Of a stretch of DNA of 64,000 nucleotides, positions 21,301 through 44,400 are shown piece after piece; the stretch's first letter is position 1; each line of letters begins with the position of its first letter. Source of the stretch: Henricia sp. BOLD:AAB3569 (Eukaryota; Echinodermata; Asteroidea; Spinulosida; Echinasteridae); the NCBI GenBank assembly GCA_037783545.1, contig JBBELK010000011.1, positions 124,001 to 188,000 of the forward strand, in the 5' to 3' direction. Below the pieces are notes generated by a model. It saw only the letters and a list, made by a program, of their open reading frames with translations, ran no database searches and had not been told where the DNA came from. The translations under genes and the position numbers were made by a program.

Positions 21301-24300
21301 ATTGGGTTTGCAGCAAAAACATGGGGAGTATACCACTGTGCCTCATAGCACAGCCGGTAGAGCATCTGCCCGGTGTGTCAGAGGTCTTGAGGAAAACCTC
21401 ACTGTGCCTTATAGCTCAGCTGGTAGAGCATCTGCCTGGTAAGTCGGAGGTCTCGGGTTCAAATCCCAACGAGGCCCAAATGATTTTTCTCTCATCCCTT
21501 ATTTGGTTGTCTTACCATTTTCATCCGAATCCCAGCGTAGAAGATTACACATTTGTGTCTTAAAGAACCTCTTGACAGTGTCTTGGTCTAAGACAGGATG
21601 GCATCTCACTAACTCAAACAGATTCCCTACAAGATGGTTCAGGTTGCATGGTTCATCACTTAGCTGGCTCTGGGATTTGTACAATTCTGGAGGGGGGGGG
21701 GGGGGGGAATTCAACAGAAAATTAAAATTAAAATCAATTAAGAGACTGTCTGAGCTGGAATGTGTATATTTTAGACAACCATGTAACTAAACAGGGTGAA
21801 AACTGAATTCAAATTGATTTTAAGCCCAAGACGAATGAGAATAAAGACGTTCTTAAGACTACTCAGAATAAATTTGTAACTAAGCTTGTATTAGTTACAT
21901 GTACATACCCATTAGGATCCAGTCAATAATCTCTTGGGAAGTCTATATGGGACAAAAATAAGTAAACATCGTTGAAAATATTCAAATAAAATCCTGGTAA
22001 TATATGCAGCTAGAATGACATAACAAATACTCAACTCCACAGGGTACATGTTTTGTAAAACGTGAAAATCTTTCTTTCCTTTTTCCCTTTTGAAATGCTT
22101 GTTGACCTGCATATTATGTTTTAACTTTTGTGAAACTGATCTCAGATCATAGTGGCTAGTTGATAATTTGTGCTAACTGGCGAGACCTGTTACTTGATTT
22201 AAATACATGACCAGGGGCCGATTTCACAAAGCACAAAGACACATCTTAGGAAGGGTCACTCTTCTTATCTTGGCACGTTGCTGTAGGACTTGGGACACAT
22301 TGAACTCGTCTTAACTTTTGTCAAATCGATCCCAGGTCACGGTGCCAGTTTGGTAATACTGAAATAATGCCATTTATATTTACAATCATCCGTGCAAGTC
22401 AACAGTGAGCTTGATGGTTACCTCAACAAGTCTCGGGTCCAGAGAATCTTCTGAATATCCGCATCTTACCAGCACTTCCAGGAAATCTAGTAGTTGCAAA
22501 AAGGAAAGAACAAAGAAGTCATATTTGTCACTTCACAATAAATCATTTTGCAGAAAGAGGGTTAGACATTTTACGTAAAATTTACTTTTCACATGGTCAA
22601 AAAGTCATTTGAAACCCAGCAGGTTTCTTTACGCCCATACAACATAACAACGTTTATTTGTTTTCCACGTATACATAAGTACATAAACTGTGGCATGTCT
22701 GCATGTTATATGTTTGACTGTGTGCTGGAAGCTTTACGCAACATAAACATAAAATTATTATCACATTTGGCAACTTTCCTTTCCTCTCACCTCTTTTCAT
22801 TACACTCTTTCTATCCTCAGCGTCTGCTTTCAAGTAGAGATCAGCCATGTTTTTGGCCAAGTTCCGAAGGACTGTCGAATGCCTGAGGTTGCACATTACG
22901 TATCGATCAAGGGGAATGGCCGAGCAAGAATGCAGTTGCCATAACAACTCCAATGGCAGCGAGTCAACCTGCAAAGTTAGAAGATCATGTGGTCCTCATT
23001 GGAAGTGATATAATTGATGTAAAGCGCTGGTGAAACCTTTTTGTAAGAGCGCTATATAAATGCCCAAATTATTATTATTATTATTACCTCACATCTTGGC
23101 ACTCAGTTCATAGTTTAATCTTATAACTTTTGGTAAAGTGGAGGTGGAAATGGCAGGTCTAGTAAAAACAAAATCTATTGTGTCTGCACCATTCTTTTTC
23201 TGTCTCTCTTTCAAGTAAGCAACTTTACCTCTAGCTAGTACCTCAATGTCTAAATTTGGTATCGTGAGAATAAATCTCATTACCTTGGAAGAAAGATTCT
23301 CAATGAAGAGGTTCTTGTTGAGAAGTTGTTGGGAAGATAACGTCTTGACGAGACTCACGACATACTCTAGATTCTTAAGAAACAAATCAAGGAAGAAAAA
23401 AAAATTAGTAATGAATTAAAGTAAATTTTAATTTCAATTTGTTTATTCATCCATAAAGATATTTGATTCAACATAAATTGTTTGAAATATTGGTTTAAAT
23501 ATCAAGCTTCAAATGTTACCACCAAAAGAATACTAACAATTTGACATTCTTAAGAGCATCTATGCCGTTTGCAAAGGTCACTTCCATTGGGAAATCAAAC
23601 AATCTCAGGAAGACAGTAAAAGGACAGCAATGCCAAGACTAGGGTAAGGGAAGCATTTATACCTTCTGGCCTTCACACAATTTGAGGAACCCCGTACCTA
23701 TGCTATAAATCAAATGCAGAGCCTGATACCAGAACCCCCTCCCTTTCATATTAGCTATGCAGATCTATTGACCTTTTCCTCACTGCAGACATCTTGATGC
23801 AGCTGCAGCAATCGACGAATCTCCTCTGCACATTCCCTTGCTGCAATAACGGGGACAGGCGTACCAGTCACATGGGCCCTGGCTTGGATGCAGGCCAAGC
23901 ATGCATCAACTACATGTAGAAAAATAAATATTTGATTGACATTTTCAAGTTTCCCAGGGAGCTTATTTCCAAGATAACAACCCCTGCCTCAACCCCGATC
24001 AAGATTTGTTCTGATTGGTAGAACAAGTGGCCTAGATTACTCAGTTGCTAGCACAACCTTGAGTCTTAAATTCAAATTCTGAATCAGCCAAACATCCTGT
24101 GCTTAATCTGATATTAAAGGCATTCAAGATCTACATTTTTGAAATTGTCGATTTAATTATCACTTCCTTTTAACTTTGGGTCATTTATCACTACTTCTAA
24201 AAACATATTATTTAAACCTGACCATTAAATCATTAAAAAAAATTATCATAAAATGCAAACAAATGTTACTTGGTCTTACTTGACAAATGTTGACTTCGAT

Positions 24301-25293: not shown

Positions 25294-26544
25294 GGCAGCA
25301 GTCAGTTATTTTGCTGAGCTAAAGTGATGGGTTAGGGTTAGGACACCCAGGATTTGCCTTTTTATGATCTATAATTTATAAACCATGTAAAAAAAATTGT
25401 TTGATGATAAAAAAACACAAAATTAAGAGGACAAAAATTTCATTATTTTACTGAGGAAAAACTTAAAATATTGCAGAGCTGTTTCATAAGTGCAGTGTGT
25501 GGGGTCCAAGTGGGTGTCCAATATCTTTCGCGCAGGCTGCCGGGCCGGGCGCGCGCTACCACTTGTTTGCACAGTAGGTACGTACCGGCGCGGTGCGGCC
25601 CTCAGGCCTCGCGGAGGTTTGACAACACAACAGCTCGCTGCAATTTCTCGAAAGTTGTGCAAGCGAAAATTACGCCGAAATAAACACTGTCGGTTTACAA
25701 GAAATAGCCATCAAATTTGTGCAAGTGTGAGAGTATTTCTATGCCCAAGGAAACTCGTAGGCGAGATCAAGATATGTAAGAATATTTCATGAATAAAACA
25801 CTCATCACATCTCACGCACATTTTCGGCTGATTTTTCGGCTGCTAATAATACTTTTTTGACGGTAGCGCGCCCTCACTTGACGCGAAAGTTACAAACTAG
25901 CCTTCAAACAAGCCGTAAATATAGTTTCTCTCTTCTTCGCATGGTAAAGAGTAGTCAATTGTGCATGTGATTTCGGGCCCGGCACACTTTTATCCGGATG
26001 CGAGCAGAACGACGTCTACGCGCATGCAACCTGCGCGCACAAAACGGCGGAAAATGATTGGACGGTGATTTGTCTAATTTGCATGTAGCTACACTGATTG
26101 GTTAAAACCCATTACATCATCTGCAGTGACCGATATTACTTCATGGTGACTTGACAAGAAAAACTCGGCGACTAATGTTCGTAGCAATGGTAAAAACAAC
26201 ATGATTTTTTTCCCCGCGTAAAATTAAACCTCTGTGGGAGAGTTTGCAACTGAAGGTGTTTTTTTTATTCGACACAGTTATCTCTGGAGGTGAGGTCACA
26301 TTAAAAAACGGACAAAGGTTAACCAAAGTTTGAGAAGTTTTACCATCCATGGAGGGTTGCATTGTTTCCTTCCTCCATTGAACATTGAACATATTGAACT
26401 CAAATCACGTGCATGTGTCGTGCACTTGAAGTCACGATAACGAATTAGTCAAATAAAACAGTCAAGTACAAGCGTCAAAGTATAAAGGTGAACAACGAAA
26501 AATGGCGAATAATCATCCAAACTACTTTGTTCATTGATCCAGTC
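25294..26544. promoter_or_regulatory. FANCA upstream region with GC-rich stretch, no gene
   Basis: Between the FANCA start and the palindrome. 25520-25620 is GC- and CpG-rich (GCCGGGCCGGGCGCGCGC) and is the likeliest promoter zone. 26102-26390 holds part of the TTAA MITE family. Short open frames here have no recognisable content. Confidence 0.45.
26102..26390. mobile_element. TTAA MITE, partial diverged copy
   Basis: Begins TTAAAACCCATTACATCATC and keeps GTGACTTGACAAGAAAAACT, then diverges; no clear right end. Confidence 0.5.
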
Positions 26545-26549
26545 GTGAA

Positions 26550-26680
26550 GTTGGTTACTTATTCGACGTTCGACGTTTAATATTCAATAAGGAACTGTTA
26601 CTTATTCAACATTCAATAAGGAGCTGTTACTTATTCGACATTCAATAAAGAGCTGTTACTTATTCGACATTCGTACGTGC
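26550..26680. repeat. Left terminal minisatellite of the palindrome
   Basis: About four units of roughly 30 bp built on GCTGTTACTTATTCGACATT and TCAATAAGGA. The mirror tract is 41270-41400. Confidence 0.85.
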
Positions 26681-26924
26681 GCTAACAGTAACTACGTACG
26701 ATTGTCTACGAATTCCGTACGCACTTTATCCACGTGCATAAGCTAGACTGGTTCCACTGTCCACATATTTACTTCCCCTTCGTCGTATATGTATAGCGAG
26801 AACAGCGTTAGCGCACATGGACAGCCGACCAGTCTAGTCCATGATTCGCGTCCGCAATTAGACTGGTTTCTTATCCTCAAATTTTCTTCTGCCTATATCA
26901 CGCATATAGGCGTAACGACGCGTA

Positions 26925-29900
26925 ATATATACGGCTCGATTTCCCCCTGCCGCACCCCCGGGGCCAGGCAGCCATGGGTGGGGATGTGTAGAGAGGAACC
27001 TTGGGTACTTGTATCCAGTGGTCGCTACCCGGCCCCGTGGGATCTCGTAGTATATTTCGTTCCAGATATATATCACGCATAGGCGTATATAGGCAATGCA
27101 TAACGATGCATAATATATACGGCTCTATTTCCCCCTGCCGCACCCCCGGGGTCAGGCAGCTATGGGTGGGGATGTGTAGAGGGGAACCTTGGGTACTTGT
27201 ATCCAGTGGTCGCTACCCGGCCCCGGGGGTTCTAGTAGTATATTTCGTTCCAAATATATGTCACGCATAGGCGTATATAGGCAATGCATAACGATGCATA
27301 ATATATACAGCTCAATTTCCCCCTGCCCCACCCCCGGGGTCAGGCAGCTATGGGTGGGGATGTGTAGAGGGGAACCTTGGGTACTTGTATCCAGTGGTCG
27401 CTACCCGGCCCCGGGGGTTCTAGTAGTATATTTCGTTCCAAATATATATCACGCATAGGCGTATATAGGCAATGCATAACGATGCATAATATATACGGCT
27501 CTATTTCCCCCTGCCCCACCCCCGGGGTCAGGCAGCCATGGGTGGGGATGTATAAAGGGGAAATTTGGGTGCTTGTATCCAGTGATCGCTACCTGGCCCG
27601 GGGGTTCTAGTGGTATATTTCGTTCCGGATATATATTATAATATCACGCCTTGGCCCATAGGCAATGCATAACGGCGGGTAATATATACGGCTCTATTTC
27701 CCCCTGCCGCACCCCCGGGGTCAGGCAGCTATGGGTGGGGATGTGTAGAGGGGAACCTTGGGTACTTGTATCCAGTGGTCGCTACCCGGCCCCGGGGGTT
27801 CTAGTAGTATATTTCGTTCCAAATATATATCACGCATAGGCGTATATAGGCAATGCATAACGATGCATAATATATACGGATCTATTTCCCCCTGCCCCAC
27901 CCCCGGGGTCAGGCAGCCATGGGTGGGGATGTATAAAGGGGAAATTTGGGTGCTTGTATCCAGTGATCCCTACCTGGCCCGGGCGGTTCTAGTGATATAT
28001 TTCGTTCCGGATATATATTATAATATCACGCCTTGGCCCATAGGCAATGCATAACGGCGGGTAATATATACGGCTCTATTTCCCCCTGCCGCATCCCCGG
28101 GGTCAGGCAGCCATGGGTGGGGATGTGTAGAGGGGAACCTTGGGTACTTGTATCCAGTGGTCGCTACCCGGCCCCGGGGGTTCTAGTAGTATATTTCGTT
28201 CCAAATATATATCACGCATAGGCGTATATAGGCAATGCATAACGATGCATAATATATACAGCTCGATTTCCCCCTGCCCCACCCCCGGGGTCAGGCAGCC
28301 ATGGGTGGGGATGTATAGAGGGGAACATTGGGTACTTGTACCCAATAGTCGCTATCCGGCCCCGGGGGTTCTAGTAGTATATTTCGTTCCAAATATATAT
28401 CACGCATAGGCGTATATAGGCAGTGCATAACGATGCATAATATATACGGCTCTATTTCCCCCTGCCGCACCCCCGGGGTCAGGCAGCTATGGGTGGGGAT
28501 GTGTAGAGGGGAACCTTGGGTACTTGTATCCAGTGGTCGCTACCCGGCCCCGGGGGTTCTAGTAGTATATTTCGTTCCAAATATATGTCACGCATAGGCG
28601 TATATAGGCAATGCATAACGATGCATAATATATACAGCTCAATTTCCCCCTGCCCCACCCCCGGGGTCAGGCAGCCATGGGTGGGGATGTATAGAGGGAA
28701 ACATTGGGTACTTGTATCCAGTGGTCGCTACCCGGCCCCGTGGGTTCTAGTAGTATATTTCGTTCCAGATATATATCACGCATAGGCGTATATAGGCAAT
28801 GCATAACGATGCATAATATATACGGCTCTATTTCCCCCTGCCGCACCCCCGGGGTCAGGCAGCTATGGGTGGGGATGTGTAGAGGGGAACCTTGGGTACT
28901 TGTATCCAGTGGTCGCTACCCGGCCCCGGGGGTTCTAGTAGTATATTTCGTTCCAAATATATATCACGCATAGGCGTATATAGGCAATGCATAACGATGC
29001 ATAATATATACAGCTCAATTTCCCCCACCCCCACCCCCGGGGTCAGGCAGCCATGGGTGGGGATGTATAGAGGGAAACATTGGGTACTTGTACCCAATGG
29101 TCGCTATCCGGCCCCGTGGGTTCTAGTAGTATATTTCGTTCCCGATATATATCACGCATAGGCGTATATAGGCAATGCATAACGATGCATAATATATACG
29201 GCTCTATTTCCCCCTGCCCCACCCCCGGGGTCAGGCAGCCATGGGTGGGGATGTATAAAGGGGAAATTTGGGTGCTTGTATCCAGTGATCGCTACCTGGC
29301 CCGGGGGGTTCTAGTGGTATATTTCGTTCCGGATATATATTATAATATCACGCCTTGGCCCATAGGCAATGCATAACGGCGGGTAATATATACGGCTCTA
29401 TTTCCCCCTGCCGCACCCCCGGGGTCAGGCAGCTATGGGTGGGGATGTGTAGAGGGGAACCTTGGGTACTTGTATCCAGTGGTCGCTACCCGGCCCCGGG
29501 GGTTCTAGTAGTATATTTCGTTCCAAATATATATCACGCATAGGCGTATATAGGCAATGCATAACGATGCATAATATATACGGCTCTATTTCCCCCTGCC
29601 CCACCCCCGGGGTCAGGCAGCCATGGGTGGGGATGTATAAAGGGGAAATTTGGGTGCTTGTATCCAGTGATCGCTACCTGGCCCGGGGGGTTCTAGTGAT
29701 ATATTTCGTTCCGGATATATATTATAATATCACGCCTTGGCCCATAGGCAATGCATAACGGCGGGTAATATATACGGCTCTATTTCCCCCTGCCGCATCC
29801 CCGGGGTCAGGCAGCCATGGGTGGGGATGTGTAGAGGGGAACCTTGGGTACTTGTATCCAGTGGTCGCTACCCGGCCCCGGGGGTTCTAGTAGTATATTT

Positions 29901-31015
29901 CGTTCCAAATATATATCACGCATAGGCGTATATAGGCAATGCATAACGATGCATAATATATACAGCTTGATTTCCCCCTGCCCCACCCCCGGGGTCAGGC
30001 AGCCATGGGTGGGGATGTATAGAGGGGAACATTGGGTACTTGTACCCAATAGTCGCTATCCGGCCCCGGGGGTTCTAGTAGTATATTTCGTTCCAAATAT
30101 ATATCACGCATAGGCGTATATAGGCAATGCATAACGATGCATAATATATACAGCTCGATTTCCCCCTGCCCCACCCCCGGGGTCAGGAAGCCATGGGTGG
30201 GGATGTATAGAGGGGAACATTGGGTACTTGTATCCAGTGGTCGCTACCTGGCCCCGAGGGTTCTAGTAGTGTAATTAGTTACGAATGTATATTACGCATA
30301 GGCCTATGCATAACGACGCGTAATATATACGGCTCAATTTCCCCCTGCCGCACCCCAGGGGCCAGGCAGCCATGGGTGTGGATGTATAGAAGGGAATCTT
30401 GGGTACTTGTATCCAGTGGTCGTTAACTGTCCCCGGGGGTTATAGTGGTATATTTCGTTCCGGGTATATATTATATCACGCGTAGGCCCACAGGCAATGC
30501 ATAAAGGCGGGTAATGTATACGGCCCGATTTCCCCCTGCCCCACCCCCGGGGTCAGGCAGCCATGGGTGGGGATGTATAATGGGGAACTTTGGGTACTTG
30601 TATCCAGTGGTCGCTACCTGGCCCCGGGGGTTCTAGTAGTGTAATTCGTTACGAATATATATTACGCATATGCATATGCATAACGACGCGTAATATATAC
30701 GGCTCAATTTCCCCCTGCCGCACCCCCGGGGTCAGGCAGCCATGGGTGGGGATGTGAAGAGGGGAACCTTGGGTACTTGTATCCAGTGGTCGCTACCCGG
30801 CCCCGGGGGTTATAGTAGTATATTTCGTTCCAGATATATATCACGCATAGGCGTATATAGGCAATGCATAACGATGCATATACGGCTCTATTTCCCCCTG
30901 CCCCACCCCCGGGGTCAGGCAGCCATGGGTTGGGATGTATAGAGGGGAAATTTGGGTACTTGTATCCAGTGGTCGCTACCTGGCTCCGGGGGTATAGTAG
31001 TATATTTCGTTCCGA
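26925..31015 (+). repeat. 188-bp satellite array, 22 copies (left arm)
   Basis: The word CAGCCATGGGTGGGGATGT or a close variant recurs every 180-192 bp from 26968 to 30921, 22 times. Each monomer has CCCCCGGGGTCAGGCAGC, CTTGTATCCAGTGGTCGCTA and a TATATTTCGTTCC segment. Two spacer types alternate (CACGCATAGGCGTATATAGG and CACGCCTTGGCCCATAGG). 27377-28400 repeats at 29080-30105, an offset of about 1704 bp. The long open frames here come from periodicity, not coding. Confidence 0.95.
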
Positions 31016-31333
31016 AAATATAAAATATGTCTACGGAACGCCGCACATGCACAGTGGGCCAGAATGAAACGAAAGTGTACCAAAATGAAATTTACATGTA
31101 TGTCATGTCTTTAAGTGGAAAGTGGAGTTCTGAGGGTTTTGAATCCCGTAGAATTCAATGGTGATAATTTTAAATCTTTGTGGCGTCACTATAGTGGTAA
31201 ACGTACCCAAAACAAACTACATGTAGGAATGTTTGTTTTAAAAACGTATAATCCATGCAATAAAAAGATGCACCAAAATGTCAACTATTGGTCTTTCCCC
31301 ACGAACTTTACGTTTTTATAACACATTTGCGCA

Positions 31334-32385
31334 CACTGCAAAAAACGCGGTGTTAAATTTCTAACACCAGGTTTTTTTTAAATTCTTTGGGTGTTACATT
31401 TGTGTCAAACGAACACCGGTGTAATAGATTAACAGCAGAAAAAGTGGTATATATTTTGCATGGTGTTAAACTTGATAAACTGCGTATGATCATAATGCAT
31501 GACGCTTAGTATTCTAATTGCATGGCAATATCCAGCTATTTGATTGGCTACATGCGTTTCGATGAGTTTTCCGCGTTTGAGCATACAAACCATAATCACC
31601 ACGTTGTACTGTCTTATGGCTAGACTATCTAAAAAAAAAATTCCTATGATACTTCATTACTCCTCAAGGGAATGTGACGAAATCATGAAAACACTTGAAT
31701 CCTTCGCTGATTCCCGTGAGAGAGGAACGTTGCTCAATTGAGTGGCCAGTACGTCTCTGGGATAGGCTTTGGATAATTTTGGAACACGATTGGATCCGTG
31801 TCTGTGATCTTGAAGATTGCTTGATCTGGACTGGTAACGATTGTGCTTGGTACGGCTGGATTCGGACCGGCGTGTTTTATTCGGACGAATAAAACATTTT
31901 AGAAACCAAAAAAACATGATGAAAACAATGGTATATTACCAATTTCATAACTGTTCCACCACAAACAAATCAGTGTTGAAATATTTTAACACCAAATGCT
32001 GGTGTTAATTTACACCATGGGTGTTACATCGAACACCAGAGGTTTTGCAGTGCGTGTTTTATTTTAAAGGGGTTCCCCCATTTTACACCAATTGGTGTCG
32101 GCTTTTAATTCTGTAAGAAAAGATCAACTGTATAGGTGTTAGCATTTAATTCCACATTCATGTGTCAATTAACACCAAAATTCTTGCCCAAAATAAACAC
32201 CAAATAAAAAATACGTTGACACCAAATGGGGGTGTTAAAGTTTAACACTCCTCTTAGTGTTAAAAAATATTGATTCCCAAATTGGTGTTACTTAACACCC
32301 AAATCCTTGCCCAATATGGATACCGACGAAGAATCAAATGTTACATCAGTGGTGTAGATTTCAACACCGCATTTTTTTTGCAGTG
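31334..32385. mobile_element. CACTG-ended DNA transposon (EnSpm/CACTA-like), non-autonomous, in left arm
   Basis: Ends CACTGCAAAAAACGCGGTGT and ACCGCATTTTTTTTGCAGTG. The right arm has the empty site (reverse reads TTTGCGCAGTTGGC), so the insertion is 1052 bp with a 2-3 bp duplication (CA or GCA), as in EnSpm/CACTA. Subterminal GGTGTTAA / TTAACACC words recur many times; no transposase frame. Confidence 0.85.
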
Positions 32386-33439
32386 CAGTTGGCCTTGGTA
32401 TTTCTCACTTCAGATAATCCTTTTACATGTATTGTTTTTAAATTTCACAAAAAAACTAAATTTGCCATCGATTTAATTGTGGAATGTTCTGTAATTTTAA
32501 GTCAATTTTCGTAACTTTGTGGTGTGCACAGCGGTCGTAATACCCTTTAAAATATTATAGAAGTAACATGGTTGTTAGCGTGATTTGCCCGTTCTCGTCG
32601 GGTTTAAGACAGTATTACCTGAAGTTAAATTTTTTAGGGAGATTACTTTTATTATAAAATAGTTGTACAGACCCAACAAAGGTGAATTTTTTTTTTTAGA
32701 AAGATTGCCATTTACCTATGTGGACACAGTTTGCATTCTCACCTGGCACATTGTGCGCCGGGGACGGAGGTATATGTACCCAAGCATGTTGACAGAAAAA
32801 AAAAATATTTTGTCACATGGCCTATATACTGCTCGCCCAATGGTAGTTCATTAATGTTATTTTGAATAATAAGATGATATCAAAACACAGGTTCGACGGG
32901 GAAAATTTAACAACACACACTGAAAAAAAATCAAATAAACAGGCACTTCACTGTAGAGCATCTTGCCGACCTTGTTATAAATATACGCTTTAATATACAG
33001 AAAGTAACCCAGTGAAAAATAAATGCTAAATTAAGAAATGAAATCAAAGGAAGTATTTTGCCATAAAAAATGCACATACTCTAAACTAATTTTGGTAAAT
33101 ACGTTTTGCTAGATATGGTTCAGTGGTCATGATTTATTTGTTCATACGTGCTGTTAGCCAATCAATTGATCGACCCTTCATCGACCTATCATTCATTCGA
33201 TTGGTCGATGGAATGATCAATCAATCGATTAATCATTCAGTCGATCGATCAATCTGCAAAAAGTTACGACCCTCCCGTGTTTGTCCTCCAGATGGGGAGA
33301 GAACAATAGAGCTACGTTGGGAAACGCACGTGGCTGCTTACTGAAGAGCACAGGCTTTATTGTTCTCCGATCTGGAGGACAAACACGGGAGATGTTTATT
33401 GACCCGTGACAGCTGCGAAACCGCTTCATTGGCAGCCGA

Positions 33440-33600
33440 AGTGTGACGTGGTTTGCCATGGGATTTGTCCATAAACATCATAGCCGTCGGAAAAAGTGCC
33501 ACTGCAAAAGCACAGGGACACGGTTCATTAATTTTAAGTTTAGAGCCATTGCCTTGGCAACTACCAACAGATGACGTATTCACGTTGGCAGTCTAATGTA
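33440..33600. mobile_element. MITE-like inverted repeat inside both palindrome arms
   Basis: GTGTGACGTGGTTTGCCATG ... TTGCCTTGGCAACTA ... GATGACGTATTCACGTTGGC; mirrored at 38035-38195. Related to 42275-42412 (GTGTGACGTCAGTTGCCATG ... GGTGACGTATTCACTTTAGT). Confidence 0.5.
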
Positions 33601-34051
33601 CATAACTACCTTCATAAAAAGCAATCATGAGGATTGTACAAATACTTCATAAGTTTTTCCTGTCTGATACGTATACTTTTCATAAAGTAAGGTTTTCTCG
33701 CTCAATTTAAACAGAATACAAATCAAAGTCATTTCAGATGCAATAGTCCGCATCAAACACAATATGGAGATGCGCTATCATCTGACAGAACGTATCCTTT
33801 GCTCAACTTATTGGGTTTGTCTCACTGGCATTCCAAAAAAAGGTCAAAATACTTCGGCTGTAAGTAGTCTTGCCCTTGTTTACAAACTGTAATAGTTTTT
33901 GGCACAAAACTATCAACCAAATTTCAAGATATTTTGAATTGTCTTTTATATAATCAAAGCATTGCAATTAACGTGTAAAGATTATATAGAGTCACATAAT
34001 TATCTAATGCACAACATCTAAAACATACAATGTTGAAACATTATGCCAAAT

Positions 34052-35326
34052 CAGGCGCGGATCCAGGGGGGGGGGGGGGGGGGGGGCCGAGGGGGCACGT
34101 GCCCCCCGGGCAAATTGAGTCCAAAAAAAAAAAAAAATGGGCGGAAAGGAAAGGAGGTAAAAGAAAAAAGGGGGGAGGGCAAGTAGTTGAGTCAAAAAAA
34201 CAAAATGGGGGGGGGGGGGAAGGAAAGGCCGTAAAAAAAAAAGGAGAAATCGGAGGGCAATCTTCTTAAAAAAAATACCGATGCCGATATTTAACATCTG
34301 CGTATACTTTTTGGCTTTAAAAATACTGAAAAAATGCAATAAGAAAAAAAAAGGTAATCAATCATGCCATGGAACTGAATTCCCCCCTCAACATCTAATC
34401 CCCATGGTGGAGTATAATTACTGGTTTGACCATTTTTCGTTTGTTATCGGTAGTCTGTGAATTCTGGTTTGCTGACCTGATTCCTCAAAGTATATAAATT
34501 GTTCTGTTTCGTCTGAAAAAGGTTCAAGGTATACCTTGTGGAAATTTTTGCCGAGGACAACTTGACGCCAATACACATAGGCCTGCCTACTAATGGTCTA
34601 TTATGTCTTGCAGCCGATCTGTCGATGTTTTAACACAGGGCATTAGGGCAAGGAACAGTCTGAAATCAAGTCCTTTTCTTGAACTTTTCAACTGGACTGA
34701 ATTAAAACTAAGAAAAAATCCGGAAAAATAAGAAATGATGATGGGTAAAAACTGCATATTAAATGCCAAATTGGGGAGGGAGAAACTTTATAGATTTTTG
34801 TCAACTTAACCGGGCGAAAATAATGGCTAAAAATAATGGTGAAAATAATTCTTCATACACACAATTCTCAAAACACACAACAATCTTCAAAACTTTTGCT
34901 TAAAAAAGTCAGTTAAAAGTGGCCAGGAATCGCCTTAGATTGCACCACAGAGCATCTAGAATCCAAAATTTCCCGGGGCCCTTAAGCGGGCCCCGGACCC
35001 CACGCCGTAAGGGCTTCGCGCTACGCCCTCGCATTTGTCCCTTTTTGTTGTGCCCCCCCGTCTACAAAATTCCTGGATCCGAAAATAATTATTCATACAC
35101 ACAATTCTCAAAACACACAACAATCTTCAAAACTTTTGCTTAAAAAAGTCAGCTAAAAGTGGCCAGGAATCGCCTTAGATTGCACCACAGAGCATCTAGA
35201 ATCCAAAATTTCCCGGGGCCCTTAAGCGGGCCCCGGACCCCACGCGGTTAGGGCTTCGCGCTACGCGCTCGCATTTGTCCCTTTTTTTTTTGCCCCCCGT
35301 CTACAAAATTCCTGGATCCGCGCCTG
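34052..35326. mobile_element. CAGGCGCGGATCCAGG-ended transposon, non-autonomous, in left arm
   Basis: Ends CAGGCGCGGATCCAGG and CCTGGATCCGCGCCTG. Flanked by CAAAT on both sides (34047-34051, 35327-35331), while the right arm carries a single CAAAT in the uninterrupted GTCAAATGGACGTC (reverse), which proves a 5-bp target duplication. Poly-G and poly-A tracts at the left; a 240-bp tandem duplication (34849-35088, 35089-35326) at the right. No transposase seen. Confidence 0.9.
34849..35326 (+). repeat. 240-bp tandem duplication within the CAGGCG element
   Basis: ACAATTCTCAAAACACACAA starts at 34861 and again at 35101; the units are nearly identical, each with CCCGGGGCCCTTAAGCGGGC. The second unit continues into the element's right end. 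Confidence 0.95.
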
Positions 35327-35477
35327 CAAATGGACGTCATATCTCAACTACTCTACATACAAGATCTAAATAAACAGGTTGAAAAGTTAAAACAAGCTAA
35401 AGCCTGCTGCCTTTAGCAGTATTTTCGAAGTTTTGCAACTTTGATCAAAATCGAGCATTGACCTTCTTTTTTTTAGT

Positions 35478-35815
35478 CAATGCGACCGAAAATTGGTGCC
35501 TTGTGGAGACATGAGTTCTAAAGGGAACAAAATATAGTGTAAAGGTCTCCACAAGGCAATTATAAAGATCTCCACAAGGATGGCACTGATTAAAAAATAC
35601 TGAATGTTCTCAAATATGAGGGATTTTAAAACTATTCTGGTCGCTACATCCTCTAGTGTATGAAATTATGAGAATTCGGTCTAAATTTGAGCTCCAGAAA
35701 AAAATTATGGTTGAAATAGGAGTGTTTTGACGGAATTTTTACCAAATAATAGCCATTGTTCGGATTTTGTGCACAAGAACAAAGGAATGTCTCCATACAA
35801 GGATAGGGGAACGGG
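35478..35815. other. Left-arm-specific stretch of the palindrome
   Basis: The right arm goes straight from GACCTTCTTTTTT to TAGTAGCGGCAACTCG (reverse); the left arm has about 335 bp between them, with TTGTGGAGAC / GTCTCCACAAGG inverted words. Either an insertion on the left or a loss on the right. Confidence 0.6.
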
Positions 35816-35970
35816 AAAGCGGCAACTCGTAGCACCGCACCGGGCACAACTTCATGTCGTTCTTCCATCAGTACCGTTAACAAAAACAAAGAAATAACAT
35901 CAAAGACTATACTTTAGTTGTTTCTTATGCAGAACGGTATATAGTTCTTTGCGACGAATGTTCGAATTCC

Positions 35971-36153
35971 TTACACAAGAGGGGGTCCAGTAGACACGAG
36001 ATATTCCGGTGTTTCTCCGACTCGGAGAACAGGCGACGAACTTCGTTCAAAGAAATGGCCGTCCAAACCATCGTAAGCGAACCAGATGTCATCTTTTTTC
36101 AAACGGCAAGTGAAGTGATATCCTCTCGATGCACCGTCATGCCATGTAAGATG
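35971..36153 (-). pseudogene. Protease-like C-terminal exon fragment in the palindrome
   Basis: After an acceptor (TTTTGTTCAG) the minus strand reads VHLTWHDGASRGYHFTC, then RLKKDDIWFAYDGLDG and ends in a stop. The H-x-T...W-x-x-Y-D-G pattern resembles the histidine end of ubiquitin-specific or transposon-borne cysteine peptidases. The other arm (36350-36500) carries the same sequence with about 50 bp missing. The family assignment is a guess; no other exon was found. Confidence 0.35.
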
Positions 36154-36236
36154 TACCTGAACAAAATAAAAACGCAACAATCATTCTTATTTTGTTTAAT
36201 GCGGATTTCGGCTTGTCTTCCATAGTCGAAATATTT

Positions 36237-36268
36237 GTGTTAGAATTCAAGTCGTACATTTAATATAT
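36237..36268. other. Palindrome centre (32-bp spacer)
   Basis: Arms meet as CATAGTCGAAATATTT - spacer - AAATATTTCGACTATG. A true loop this short predicts cruciform or hairpin formation. Confidence 0.85.
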
Positions 36269-36879
36269 AAATATTTCGACTATGGAAGACAAGCTGAAAT
36301 CCGCATTAAACAAAATGAGAATGATTGTTGCGTTTTTATTTTTTTTAAGTGCATCTTACATGGCATGACGGTGCATCGAGAGGATATCACTTCACTTGCC
36401 GTTTGAGAAAAGATGACATCTGGTTCGCCGCCTGTTCTCCGAGTCGGAGAAACACCGGAATATCTCGTGTATCTACTGGACGACCTCTTGTGTAAGGAAT
36501 TCGAACATTCGTCGCAATGAACTATATACCGTTCTGCATAAGAAACAACTGAAGTATAGTCTTTACAGTGATGTTATTTGTTTGTTTTTGTTAACGGTAT
36601 ACTAATGGGGAACGACGTGCAGTTGTGCCCGGTGCGGTGCTACGAGTTGCCGCTACTAACAAAAAAGAAGGTCAATGCTCGATTTTGATCAAAGTTGCAA
36701 AACTTCGAAAATACTGCTAAAGGCAGCAGGCTTTAGCTTGTTTTAACTTTTCAACCTGTTTATTTAGATCTTGTATGTAGAGTAGTTGAGATATGACGTC
36801 CATTTGACATAATGTTTCAACATTGTATGTTTTATATGTTGTGCATTAGATAATTATGTGACTCCGTAATCTTTACACG

Positions 36880-37689
36880 TTAAAGGTACACACCGGCCTA
36901 CTGTTTACATAGTTAATAGTGATGTAGTATCGTTGACAATAATTTTTTGATGGCCCTTGTGAAAAAGATCATAAAAATCCCCGTGAATACAGACAAAAGC
37001 TTAAAATAATGAAAACGGTAAATAGTCGGGTATACGCTTTACCAGCCGTTCACTATCGTGCCGAAACTCAAGATTTTGTTGCAAGCGATATTCACTCTTC
37101 AGTTGTCAGATGTTGCTTTATTTTCTTCTGAATATGTCACTTGACAGTCAGGACGATTCCATTTTTCTGTAGAGTTGGAGTTTCGGTTTGTCTTCGCGAA
37201 AAAAAATACGTGCGTAGAGCGTGGTAGCACAGTGGACGTGGCGGTGCGGCCGCCGGGCTAATGTTGCGTTTTTCCCGTGGGCTTCAGCGGCGTAACACGC
37301 TTGCATTTCTCGGACTTCTTGTGTCAACATTTTATGTTCGATTTCTCAGAGTTATGTTCAAATTTGTTTCATGATCTGAATAAATATTTTTTTGTTTTTG
37401 GAAAAAAAATCAGAGCTGAATTTGATGCAGTACTACCGTAATAAGCTCCCGAAGTCAACTACCGAACGGCTGGAAACGAAACTAACTCCAATGACACGTG
37501 ACGTTTCTGAACCAGATTCAGGTTCAGAAAAGTCACGTGACCTCAGTTTTTTTTTAATGCTAAAAAACGGTCAAATTTGATGGCGTCTTTTTAAGATATT
37601 TTTTAGACTACTTGAGAAGGGTCTTCATAATCACGTGATAGTGAATTTAGAGCCCAAAATAGCCCAACAAAGCCGGTGTGTTCCTTTAA
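36880..37689. mobile_element. TTAA-flanked transposon (piggyBac-like target), in right arm
   Basis: Ends TTAAAGGTACACACCGGCC and GCCGGTGTGTTCCTTTAA. The left arm has the empty site GCAATTAACGTGTAAAG with one TTAA, confirming a TTAA target duplication. 810 bp, no transposase frame; internal hairpin GTCACGTGACC / TCACGTGACG. Confidence 0.88.
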
Positions 37690-39574
37690 TTGCAATGCTT
37701 TGATTATATAAAAGACAATTCAAAATATCTTGAAATTTTGTTGATAGTTTTGTGCCAAAAACTATTACAGTTTGTAAAAAAAGGCAAGACTACTTACAGC
37801 CGAAGTATTTTGACCTTTTTTGGAATGTCAGTGAGACAAAGTTAACCCAATAAGTTCGGCACATGATATACGTTCTGTCAGATAATAGCACATCTCCATA
37901 TTGTGTTTGATGTGGACTATTGCATCTGAAATGACTTTGATTTGTATTCTGTTTAAATACGTCACTCTTAGACAGGAAAAACTTATGAAGTATTCGTACA
38001 ATCCTCATGATTGCTTTTTATGAATATAGTAATGTACATTAGACTGCCAACGTGAATACGTCATCTATTTGTAGTTGCCAAGGCAATGGCTCTAAACTTA
38101 AAATCAATGAACCGTGTCCCTGTGCTTTTGCAGTGGCACTTTTTCCGACGGCTATGATGTTTAGGGACAATTACCATGGCAAACCACGTCACACTTCGGC
38201 TGCCAATAAAGCGGTTTCACAGCTGTCACGGGTCAATAAACATCTCCCGTGTTTGTCCTTCGGATCGGAGAACAATAAAGCCTGTGCTTTTCGGTAAGCA
38301 GCCACGTGCGTTTCCCCACGTAGCTCTCCCCATCTGGAGGACAAACACGGGAGGGTCGTGACTTTTTGCAGACCGATCGATCGACTGATTGATCGATTGA
38401 TTGATCAATCAGATTTTTGCAGATTGATCAATCAGATTTTTGCAGATGGATCGACCAATCGAATGAATGATAGGTCGATGAAGGGTCGATTAATTGATTG
38501 GCTAACAGCACGTATGAACAAATAAATCATGACCATGTGCACTGAACCATATCTAGCAAAACGTATTTACCAAAATTAGTTTAGAGTATGTGCATTTTTT
38601 CTGGCAAAATACTTCCTTTGATTTCATTTCTTAATTTAGCATTTATTTTTCGCTGGGTTACTTTCTGTATTTAAAGCGTATATTTATAACAAGGTCGGCT
38701 ACAGTGAAGTGCCTGTTTATTTGAATGTTTTTCAGTGTGTTGTTGTTCAATTTTCACCGTCGAACCTGTGTTTTGATATCATTTTATTATTGTCCAAAAT
38801 AACATTAATGAACTACCATTGGGCGAGCAGTATATAGGCCATGTGACAAATGTTCTTTCTGTCAACATGGTTGGGTACATATACCTCCGTCCCCGGCGCA
38901 CAATGGGCCAGGTGATAATGCAAACTGTGTCCAAATAGGTAAATGGCGATCTTTCTAAAAAATAAAAAAATTAAATTTTGGGTCTGTACAACTTTTTTAT
39001 AATAAAAGTAATCTCCCTAAAATGTTTAACTTCAGGTAATACTGTCTTAAACCCGACGAGAACGGGCAAATCACACGAGAAACCATGTTACTTCCATAAT
39101 ATTTTAAAGGGCATTACGACCGCTGTGCACACCATAAAGTTAAGAAAATTTACTTGAAATTACAGAACAATCCACAATTAAATCGATGGCAAATTTAGGG
39201 TTTTTTTTATGAAGGGAAATTCAAAAACAATAAAGGATTATCTGAAGTGAGAAATACCAAAGCCAACTGCGCAAATATGTTTTAAAAACGTAAAGTTCGT
39301 GGGGAAAGACCACGTGGTTGGCATTTTGGTGCATCTTTTTATTGGATGAATTATACGTTTTTAAAACAAACGTCCGTAGTTTGTTTTGGGTACGTTTACC
39401 ACTTTAGTGACCCCATAAAGATTTAAAATTATCACCATTGAATTCTACGGGTTTAAAAACCCTCAGAACTCCACTTTCCACTTAAAGACAGACATAAATG
39501 TATATTTAATTTTGGCAAACTTTCGTTTCATTCTGGCCCACTGTGCATGTGCGTCGTTCCGTGGACATATTTTA

Positions 39575-41045
39575 TATTTTCGGAACGAAATATACTACTA
39601 GGACCAGCTAGGACCCCCGGGGCCAGGTAGAACCACTGTATACAAGTACCCAAAATTCCCCTTTATACATCCCTACCCATGGCTGCCTGGCCCCGGTGGT
39701 TTGGCAGGGGGAAATCGGGCCGCATATATTACCCGCCGTTATGCATTGCCTATGGGCCTAGGCGTGATATTATAATATATATCCGGAACGAAATATACCA
39801 CTAGAACCCCCGGAGCCAGGTAGCGACCAATGGATATAAGTACCCAAGGTTCCCTTCTATACATCCCCACCCATGGCTGCCTGGCCCCTGGGGTGCGGCA
39901 GGGGAAAATCGAGCCGTATATATTATGCATCGTTATGCATTGCTATATATACGCCTATGCGTGATATATATCTGGAACGAAATATACTACTAGAACCCCC
40001 GGGGCCGGATAGCGACCATTGAATACAAGTACCCAATGTTCCCCTCTATACATCCCCACCAATGGTGGGAAATTGAGCCGTATATATTACGCGTCGTTAT
40101 GCATATGCCTATGCGTAATATATATTCGTAACGAATTACACTACTAGAACCCCCGGGGCCAGGTAGCGACCACTGGATACAAGTACCAAAAGTTCCCCAT
40201 TATACATCCCTACCCATGGCTGCCTGACCCCGGGGGTGGGGCAGGGGGAAATTGAGCTGTATATATTACCCGCCTTTATGCATTGCCTCTGAGCCTACGC
40301 GTGATATAATATATACCCGGAACGAAATATACCACTATAACCCCCGGGGACAGTTAGCGACCACTGGATACAAGTACCCAAGGTTCCCCTCTATACATCC
40401 CCACCCATGGCTGCCTGACCCCGGGGGTGCGTCAGGGGGAATTGAGACGTATATATTACGCGTCGTTATAAGGCCTATATGCGTGATATATATCTGGAAC
40501 GAAATACACTACTAAAACCCCCGGGGCCAGGTAGCGACCACTGGATACAAGTACCCAAAGTTCCCCTTTATACATCCCCACCCATGGCTGCCTGACCCCG
40601 GGGGTGCGGCAGGGGAAAATTGAGCCGTATGTATTACGCGTCGTTATGCATTGCCTGTGGGCCTACGCGTGATATAATTTATATCCGGAACGAAATATAC
40701 CACTAGAACCCCCGGGGCCAGGTAGCGACCACTGGATACAAGTACCCAAGGTTCCCATCTATAGGCCTACATCCCTACCCATGGCTGCCTTACCCCGGGG
40801 GTGCGGCAGGGGTAAATCGAGCCGTATATAATACGCGTCGTTATGCATTATGTATATATAGGCCCATGCGTGATATAAATACACTACTAGAACCCCCCGG
40901 GCCAGGTAGCGACAACTGGATACAAGTACCCAAGGTTCCCCTCTATACATCCCCACCCATGGCTGCCTGGACCCGGGGGTGAGGCAGGGGGAAATCAAGC
41001 CGTATATATTATGCATCGCCTGCATTGCCTATATACGCCTATATG
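39575..41045 (-). repeat. 188-bp satellite array, 8 copies (right arm)
   Basis: Reverse orientation of the left array (ACATCCCCACCCATGGCTGC recurring) from about 39670 to 40970; one monomer near 40060 carries a deletion. Confidence 0.93.
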
Positions 41046-41269
41046 CGTGATATAGGCAGAAGAAAATTTGAGGACAAGGAACCAGTCTTATTGCAAATGC
41101 GGATCATGGACTAGACTGGTCACCTGTCCAAGTGCGCTACGCTGTTCTCGCTATACATATACGACGAAGGGGAAGTAAATATGTGGACAGGCGAACCAGT
41201 CTAGCCTATGCACGTGATGCAGTGCGTACGGAATTCGTAGACAATCGTACGCAGTTACTGTTAGCGCAC

Positions 41270-41401
41270 GTACGAATGTCGAATAAGTAACAGCTCCTTA
41301 TTGAATGTCGAATAAGTAACAGCTCCTTATTGAATGTTTAATAAGTAACAGCTCCTTATTGAATATTGAACGTCGAACGTCGAATAAGTAACCAACTTCA
41401 C
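41270..41401. repeat. Right terminal minisatellite of the palindrome
   Basis: Three to four units of GAATAAGTAACAGCTCCTTA plus TTGAATGTC; ends 33 bp before the SULT start codon. Confidence 0.85.
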
Positions 41402-41434
41402 ACCGGTCAAGAACCAAACTATTGAGAAATAATC

Positions 41435-44400
41435 ATGCCTTTAAAGATTCTCCGTGGCATGGCCTTACCGTGGCGGGCACTGGACAGCAATCTTCAGGCG
41501 GCCCAAGATCTAGAAGTCAAAGATACAGATGTCTTCGTCATATCTTTCCCCAAATCAGGTACCGATATAACGCTCGTTTCATGCGTCCTTCTTGGGTCGT
41601 GTGTCTCATCGTTCGTGTTGTTGCGGTGGTTCGTCACAGGCGCTAGCTTGTTTTGTCTTAAGCGGGCCTCCCACTGTGCGATTTTTGCCACGAATTAGCT
41701 ACGATTGGGTACGATTGGGTACGATTATTATTATTATTATTATTATTTATTCGGCCAATACATCAACAAAAAAAACAAAAAAACAAGAGCACACAAATTA
41801 CATGCTGTGAACAATAAACAAAAGTTACAAAAGAAAGCGCAATTTACGATGTAATACTGAATAATGCAGAGAAAATAGACAGGAGTGAACCAGGACAAAA
41901 CAGTCCAAGCCGGCCAGGGTAAGCAAAAGTGAACCTAAACACTGTAGCCCTAAAGCCTGCTCACCCAAGCTTGATCTGTTCACATAAAGAGACACATATA
42001 AATATTTTGTAAATTAATAAAACATAGAAAAAAATATATATATTTATATAACGGCAGATTAACTTGTGGATAAAATAAGGTGTTACAGAAAAATGCAATT
42101 AAAATGATATTTAGTACGAAAAAAAAAAATCAAAGTGATATGTGTGTGGTCAGGCAAATACATTTAAATGTAATGAATGAAATTAGAATAACAAATTGGC
42201 AAGAATGTGGAATAAACATATTAAACACTCATTTTATTTTTTTTTTTTTAAAAATACCACAGGAAATATTGTACTAAAGTGTGACGTCAGTTGCCATGGC
42301 AATTGGGTCTAAACACGTCCACCGGTATAGCACAGGAAAACAGTTCACTGGATTCAGTGTAGACCCAACAACCATGGCAACACACGAAGGGTGACGTATT
42401 CACTTTAGTAGTCTATTGGCAAAACACAGAACACAAACACTTCGAGTAAACAAGTAAACATTCAGAAAAGACCAAGGAAAGAACAAACAAACACAAACAC
42501 CAACAAGTCAAAGTCGAAAACAATTCACTTCCAGTACCCCTATCCCTCCCCCCTCGCACCTCCCCCTACCCCCACTGCACCCCTCGCCCACCCTTCCCCT
42601 TTCCCTCCCACCACCCAAACCCCACACCCCCCCACAGAGCCGCTCCCCCAAGACCCGCCCCCCTCCCCCCACAAGAAACAAACAAACAGCCCAACAAACA
42701 AACATCAACAACCCAAAAAACAAACAAACAAAACGCAACAACAACAATGGGAATGAGTGAAGATTTATCCTAGATCCTGAAAGTAGCTAGACAAGGTTTT
42801 GTTGAATGAATTGAAGCTGTCCATGATAACAGAGTCTCTGATATGTGAGGGAAGGCTGCTCCAGATCCGTGGGAATGAATGAGTGATGGAGTTCTTAAGG
42901 GCAAGTGTTCTGGCATACTGGTGGATGAAAACGAGATGATCCTGGTGGCGCGTGTTTACAGTTAAGTTATCATGAATCGAATGACAGTCAATAACTCGAA
43001 ATAGGGACTTCATAACAAATGTGATTGCTTGCTTGTCACGTCTGTTCCCTAAGGACGTCCAGTTGAGGGCTCGAAGTCTTTCCTCATAAGACATAGACCC
43101 CCTTGCAACCTTTAAGCACATCCTGCAGGCACGGCGCTGGACCCTCTCCAGTTTGGATTTGTCGACCGCGGTGTATGGGGACCAGGCTGGCAAACCATAT
43201 TCCAGCACTGGTAGCACAAGGGATTTGTAGAGGGATGCAATGGCCTTTGTTGACGCACCACCTGCCACTTGCCATATGAAGCCTAATGTTCGGTTGGCTT
43301 TCGAAACAACCGTGTTGATGTGGTTAGTCCAGGTCAGGGTACTGTTGATAGTAATACCAAGGTATTTGTGTGTTGTAGTGATGCTGAGAGGAGTGCCGTG
43401 GAGGGTGTAAACTGGTGGTTCCACTGGTTTCCTCGCTCTTGTCATGTGCAGTACTTTTGTCTTCTTTTTGTTGATCTGCATGCCGTTCATTGTACTCCAT
43501 CTGCCAAGTTCAGTGAGGTCTGCTTGGAGGGCAAGCTCATCATCTGGTGACTGGATTGGTTGGTAAATAATTGTATCATCGGCAAATAACAGGACGTTTG
43601 TCGACAGGTTGTGGGAAATGTCATTCACGAAGAGGTTGAAAAGCAAAGGGCCTAGGACGCTTCCTTGTGGGACTCCGGATGTTACTGGGGCCCAGTCCGA
43701 ACAGCAACCGCGATACATAACACGCTGCCTTCGGCCAATCAAGAAGGATTTAATCCATGCCCAGGTTTGTCCACGGATGTTGTAATTACTTGCAATTTTT
43801 TCAAGCAGGGTGTGGTGAGGCATGACGTCAAAAGCCTTGCTGAAATCGAGGAAGATTATGTCGATGCGAGGAGGACGCGGTCTATCGAGTATGGTTGCCC
43901 AGTCAGAGATTGCATTTGTAAGTTGGGTGACGCAGGATCGGTGTGCAGTGAAGCCGTGTTGTTTGGGGTTTGCAAGGCAAAGTGAGGTGATATGTTCATT
44001 GATGTTCTCTCCCACGGCTTTTTCAAGAACTTTGCAGATGACCGAAGTCAATGCGACTGGACGGTAGTTTTGGATGTTGGTGCGCTTACCAGACTTAAAC
44101 ACTGGTGATATTTGACTGTTTCCAGTCCATAGGGAGGTAACCGGTTGAAAGCGAGGAGTTCATTATTCGTAGGAGTGGAGGTGCAAGTGTTGTGGCCATT
44201 GCTCGTATTAATGTAGACGAGATGCCATCACATCCTGGAGCTTTGTGTGGGTTGAGATTGAGCAGAGTTTTCCGAAGCCATCCAAGCTTAACTGAGATAG
44301 GGGAAAGTTCAGGTATTGGCATGGAACAAGGGGGCGGAGTCAGTGGAGGTGGTGTGGGCGGTGACTGAACTGAGGAGAAGAACTTGTTGAATGCTTCGCA

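Follow-up and report, generated by a model that had tools for sequence, protein, structure and literature searches.

A giant satellite-bearing palindrome in the genome of Henricia sp., a copy of a foldback transposon family that is very probably Rehavkus-like

Is a palindrome of almost 15 kb with satellite DNA in both arms a mobile element, or the inverted duplication of a satellite locus? The question is raised by a 64,000 nt stretch of the genome of the echinoderm Henricia sp. BOLD:AAB3569 (contig JBBELK010000011.1, C11:124001–188000; hereafter the window), for which an initial annotation, made from the sequence alone, offered two readings, a new giant foldback family and an inverted duplication of a satellite-containing locus. 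The genome searched here comprises 740.7 Mb in 2104 contigs. The palindrome is one copy of a foldback DNA transposon family, because a pattern taken from its ends matches the genome 444 times against 0 for the control, and because 9 bp target duplications flank 19 of 25 other copies. The features described below make it very probable that the window copy is a non-autonomous giant foldback transposon of a Rehavkus-like (Mutator-related) family.

Self-comparison of the window revealed one dominant inverted repeat, matched piecewise between 26526 and 41417, and thus confirmed the palindrome with satellite-bearing arms that had been annotated. The finer structure predicted for it is likewise present: the terminal minisatellite of ~30 bp has a 29 bp unit in 3.1 copies in each arm, the satellite arrays have a unit of 188–194 bp (22 hits in the left arm vs 8 in the right; satellite counts per arm are BLAST hits throughout), and the central spacer is 32 bp long. 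An exact-match script left 34 bp between 36235 and 36270, and the outer T and A also pair, giving the spacer at 36237–36268. From the outside in, each arm consists of terminal sequence, ~3 units of the 29 bp minisatellite, ~240 bp of subterminal DNA, the 188 bp satellite array and a core. The arms are asymmetric, with ~9.7 kb on the left and ~5.1 kb on the right. Six matched segments are identical between the arms at 0.945, 0.931, 0.939, 0.951, 1.000 (151 bp) and 0.944; these values count aligned bases only, and the corresponding BLAST values of 82–88 % include gaps. The central 306 nt have a folding z-score of −32, and none of 100 shuffled sequences folds as well. The components are as follows.

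26538..41407, no strand: whole element, ~14.87 kb; termini set by comparison with other copies, left boundary placed by eye
26538..26909, plus: left terminal and subterminal DNA, matching the right end at 94.5 % of 363 aligned bases
26582..26672, plus: left 29 bp minisatellite, 3.1 copies (repeat finder)
26910..31021, plus: left satellite array, 188 bp unit, 22 monomer hits (repeat finder, BLAST)
31022..36236, plus: left arm core, pairing in pieces with 36269–39573; identity to C338 0.901 (1530 aligned bases)
34052..35326, plus: segment of the left arm only, ~1.3 kb, including a 240 bp × 2 tandem repeat; also in C159 at 92 %
36237..36268, no strand: central spacer, 32 bp, collinear with the C338 arm past the breakpoint of the right arm
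36269..39573, minus: right arm core, pairing in pieces with the left core
36884..37685, no strand: segment of the right arm only, ~0.8 kb; parts match the centres of other giants (68–80 %) and, at 68 %, DNA directly 3′ of the C757 transposase relative, in varying orientation
39574..41018, minus: right satellite array, 8 monomer hits (repeat finder, BLAST)
41019..41407, minus: right terminal and subterminal region, end intact by comparison with other copies
41274..41364, minus: right 29 bp minisatellite, 3.1 copies (repeat finder)

The ends of the element read ACCGGTGTGAAGTTGG. In the window copy the left end is mutated (TCCAGTCGTGAAG) and the right end is intact (ACCGGTGTGAAG, minus strand); other copies begin with ACCGG or a variant of it. 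In the genome searches with the terminal sequence and with the arm core, 40 candidates were scored in each case, out of 1659 and 2586, respectively. The former set holds 63 matches to the terminal 356 bp; beyond the window element there are 61 such places, which the left terminal region matches at 77–98 %. The 29 bp minisatellite also occurs in all three pieces of relatives that were run through the repeat finder (L011, L012 and L016). The search for many loci with the same ends, proposed as a check in the initial annotation, was made with a 30-base end pattern at up to 3 mismatches on both strands, with a backward control; the 444 matches divide into 230 forward and 214 reverse, and the control gave none on either strand. 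End pairing was analysed for 100 exact ends among the 444 matches. Of these, 64 pair as 32 inward-facing elements, and the other 36 lack an exact partner among those listed. Thirty of the paired elements measure 238–2105 bp, one 19.3 kb and one 24.5 kb. Among neighbouring listed ends within 30 kb of each other, no divergent and one same-strand arrangement was seen.

Target duplications were assessed in 25 other copies, 7 giants and 18 short elements; the window copy, M38 (flank cut), M43 (same flanks as M42) and C343 and C338 (one end fetched) were left out. Duplications of 9 bp are exact in 14 of the 25 and present with at most one mismatch in 19, compared with fractions of 0.0000 and 0.0017, respectively, for shuffled flanks. 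Lengths of 5–7 and 10–13 bp were found in none of the 25, and a length of 8 bp in one exactly and in two with at most one mismatch. The body plan known from foldback elements is thus found here on both counts: long inverted repeats carry tandem repeats in variable number, and dispersed copies share ends and target duplications.

The satellite is a component of the transposon family, since 352 of the 354 genome matches to a 30-base satellite pattern (control, 0) lie within ten giant loci, two of which were fetched at one end only. In all eight elements fetched with both ends, the array runs forward in the left arm and in reverse in the right, with 8–42 hits per arm. Among 130 monomers with a minimum length of 165 bases, similarity is 0.913 within an arm, 0.906 between the arms of one element and 0.891 between elements. 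The difference is small, and the likeness of monomers within an element is compatible with either exchange or common descent between the arms. The arrays would grow and shrink by unequal exchange. No sign was seen that the satellite grew out of the element ends, as the exact matches between the one monomer compared and the subterminal region are only 7 bases long.

Giants of about 16–24.5 kb stand beside the short copies. Six of them (C254, C171, C616, C571, C267 and C702) have inverted satellite-bearing arms, with longest matched stretches of 2.7–5.0 kb that are 90–96 % identical, around centres of several kilobases; the arms of C159 are more fragmented. C267 and C702 have centre DNA in common at 98 %, and this suggests that the two form a young subgroup. 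A conserved frame of ~150 amino acids in other giants gave no Pfam match in the one representative scanned, and its conservation may reflect DNA similarity only. Reverse transcriptase frames in C159 and C171 were considered as a transposase and rejected; they are probably nested retroelements.

Arm cores that occur nowhere else would, by the initial annotation, have counted against its reading. The core is not private to the window: among the 40 of 2586 candidates scored, a 1.7 kb piece of it recurs at full length in C338 only, the closest relative that was found. Arm-core pieces match C338 at 81–93 % by BLAST, and the end of the C338 element lies near C338:28621. Just inward of the shared arm, C338:12649–18126 is one open frame of 1826 codons with a PHD finger (PF00628, residues 196–240, E 2.5e-9) and a 159 bp repeat inside the coding region. 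The C-terminal half of the predicted protein is 21–28 % related to a set of other genome loci and, read by eye, appears to hold a D...D...E pattern as in DDE transposases (DATG, ETDFSW, VENW). Against profiles of 5 or 13 frames taken from MULE-matching (Mutator-like element) loci of this genome, the first two presumed catalytic Asp sites line up, with E 4.9e-5 at 68 % probability and E 3.8e-4 at 36 %, a suggestive link at the protein level. The profile rows are the longest frames from each of 13 PF10551-matching loci, of which only L062 was itself scanned. The C338 element is likely the transposase source for the family, and is put forward as a candidate. A sister-element transposase, such as that of C338, would bind the ACCGGTGTGAAG ends, excise the element and reinsert it with a 9 bp duplication, with catalysis presumably in trans.

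Of the 45 stop-to-stop frames in the window element, 6 were scanned against Pfam and none of these scored above a curated cut-off, and the C338 protein compared with the window by tblastn gave nothing listed above 35 bits. Two other transposase sources were rejected. None of 19 genome matches to PF10551 is near any fetched element (their ends were not compared). A relative of the C338 transposase with 53–59 % identity (L053, C757:884001–892000) showed no family end in the 8 kb searched, even with 9 substitutions allowed. This locus carries tandem repeats of its own, with 60 bp and 24 bp units.

The Rehavkus-like assignment draws on three traits: the 9 bp duplication in 19 of 25 copies (not in the window copy), the PHD finger of the C338 frame, and a satellite array next to the terminal repeat. 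The likeness falls short of proven membership in Rehavkus proper, as it is judged by published descriptions and not by a reference protein sequence. Several observations weigh against the reading as a whole. A clean 9 bp duplication is missing in 6 of the 25 copies (C616, M31, which has an exact 8 bp duplication, M36, M42, M44 and M48). No target duplication is visible at the flanks of the window copy either, in agreement with the initial annotation. The CCAGTC and ACCGGTC that it quoted as left and right flanks are indeed the letters there, but they contain the element's own termini, with ACCGG intact on the right and mutated on the left; a resemblance of the two flanks seen by eye is inverted, not direct, and was set aside as chance. 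In Pfam the C338 frame matches no transposase domain, PF10551 included, and the MULE profile match is weak, with subsets giving E values of 0.018–0.21 and reversed controls 0.24–0.5. Finally, C338:4–21614 is a perfect palindrome that starts at the contig end, with ~10.8 kb per arm and no mismatch around a 53 bp spacer. It may partly be an assembly artefact, in which case the other end of the C338 element is unseen; only one half of it was used in the analysis.

The lack of a target duplication at the window copy, and the recovery of the searched core piece at full length from C338 only among the candidates scored, would suit an ordinary satellite locus that was segmentally duplicated in inverse orientation and is immobile. 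With 444 end matches, 9 bp duplications elsewhere and a satellite nearly confined to loci with these ends, such a duplication is very improbable. What stands of that earlier suggestion is the centre, where one transposon end seems to have been duplicated in inverted orientation; the family is a transposon and not an immobile locus. An assembly artefact, from a foldback read or a misjoined contig, would have possible precedents in the same assembly, in the perfect palindrome at the start of C338 and in contig C955, where a COX1 match recurs at 16,221-base steps. The window arms differ by ~6 % of aligned bases, hold 22 vs 8 satellite hits and carry unlike insertions, so a simple foldback-read artefact is unlikely, and an artefact of either sort is scarcely credible for the window. 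Foldback shape comes with several kinds of transposase, as far as the accessible text of PMC3169594 describes them, and the MULE link is weak here; an element built alike but from another superfamily, such as P (to which Galileo belongs) or hAT, is accordingly conceivable. It is nevertheless an unlikely alternative, given that the 9 bp duplication fits MULE/Rehavkus and that a PHD-bearing, DDE-like frame adjoins the arm.

How the palindrome itself arose is a separate matter. The left arm and the spacer of the window copy are collinear with C338 for ~30 bp beyond the breakpoint of the right arm, with a 3 bp (AAA) overlap at the switch, as read by eye. This staggered centre suggests a fold-back duplication of one transposon end, a conclusion less sure than the family assignment. 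The palindrome would arise when one end of an autonomous element undergoes inverted duplication by fold-back (template switch or hairpin), which would leave two copies of that end. In the core, identity between the arms (0.939) exceeds that of either arm to C338 (0.901 and 0.895). The centre piece does not fit a simple single-event tree: the left arm is 0.965 identical to C338 and 0.944 to the right arm, and the right arm is 0.925 identical to C338. With the left arm here nearer to C338, the arms have probably undergone gene conversion at a later stage or had a more complicated history.

The same transposon could instead have become a palindrome by internal deletion between two older long terminal inverted repeats, an account that differs in the origin of the palindrome only. 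Six other giants already have satellite-bearing inverted repeats of 2.7–5.0 kb (90–96 %) around multi-kilobase centres, and a foldback copy of 9 kb consisting of terminal inverted repeats (TIRs) only is described for Galileo (copy 112; PMC4168063, in part). A deletion needs both breakpoints within ~32 bp in arm coordinates by chance, whereas two breakpoints so close are expected from fold-back, and fold-back is favoured for that reason. Internal deletion is nonetheless a real possibility, if somewhat short of an even chance. A bolder and rather doubtful extension of the fold-back reading is that duplication of single ends is the routine birth of giant mobile palindromes. Broken or single-ended elements would thereby regain two ends, the window copy would be a diverged product of some age, and C338, whose two perfectly identical transposase genes stand head to head across the 53 bp spacer, a fresh and real one.

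Several other features were observed in the window. Beside the palindrome lies a LINE-like retroelement (42768–46464, minus) with reverse transcriptase and endonuclease domains and a sub-threshold PHD finger match. Frames with similarity to known proteins comprise a galactose-3-O-sulfotransferase-like frame (1310–2437; PF06990, E 1.1e-57), a FANCA arcN subdomain frame (14920–15474, minus; E 2e-13) and two frames with NAD/FAD oxidoreductase domains (52919–56391, minus), perhaps exons of one gene. Two smaller self-inverse palindromes (24514–24828 and 57716–58129) are 82–83 % identical by BLAST. A 155 bp tandem repeat is present in 3.7 copies with 96 % matches (59718–60297), and a tRNA-like match of 38 bits lies at 21405–21477. 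Elsewhere in the assembly, C955 contains the COX1 match three times and has the appearance of a mitochondrial genome in concatenated copies. The mitochondrial COX1 frame stays open under NCBI translation tables 5, 9, 13 and 14. Table 9 (AAA = Asn, AGA = Ser), the echinoderm type, was picked on the assumption that the AAA sites of COX1 are Asn sites conserved in animals; flatworms share this code.

FB/NOF and the sea urchin TU elements, the latter named in the initial annotation, are foldback elements whose arms likewise carry tandem repeats, a likeness of layout; no paper devoted to either came up in the literature searches. The following comparisons rely on the accessible portions of the articles cited. 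The closest known match, by description, is Rehavkus-1_TC of Tribolium and the Rehavkus group. Rehavkus elements have 9 bp duplications, a PHD finger and a minisatellite, and their published hosts, a descriptive rather than a defining trait, are Arthropoda and Annelida (PMC6446971); Rehavkus-1_TC is 9.5 kb long with the 164 bp TCsat23 in its inverted termini, mostly in 5 and 8 monomers (PMC10218199). Common to this group and the Henricia family are the 9 bp duplication, the PHD finger and a satellite in inverted termini. In contrast to Rehavkus-1_TC, the Henricia elements measure ~15–24.5 kb and have up to 42 satellite hits per arm, and the echinoderm host is outside the published range. Rehavkus is not named in the accessible part of a review of giant transposons. 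The literature searched, which was judged by titles and the starts of abstracts and had most subscription journals outside its coverage, yielded no echinoderm example of such a family and no Repbase report. The family is therefore new as far as that literature goes, of a kind already known, and unusually large. If echinoderm membership is confirmed, the known host range of the Rehavkus group widens.

Other systems share parts of the plan. Tm1 of root-knot nematodes has foldback TIRs of tandem units, 9 bp duplications and transposase-bearing, hairpin and MITE-like (miniature inverted-repeat transposable element) classes, but its units are of ~14 bp, its main amplicons of ~0.9 and 2.3 kb, and its transposase is of the Phantom type with FLYWCH and MULE domains (PMC3169594). 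Galileo copy 112 of Drosophila willistoni resembles the window copy in its TIR-only structure, ~140 bp tandem repeats and nested transposable element fragments, and differs in belonging to the P superfamily, with 7–8 bp duplications (PMC4168063). Tetris/DAIBAM of Drosophila virilis combines tandem ~220 bp repeats in long TIRs with 8–10 bp duplications and a MITE with the same ends; its TIRs reach only 1.7 kb, its repeats also form separate satellite-like arrays, and no autonomous copy was found (PMC4079207). The Henricia satellite, by comparison, is tied almost wholly to one transposon family (352 of 354 matches inside element loci), and a candidate transposase copy is present. One genome thus holds the full set of short copies, giants, a near-centreless palindrome and a candidate transposase source, the last of which Tetris is without, and the staggered centre makes the birth mechanism of foldback elements testable.

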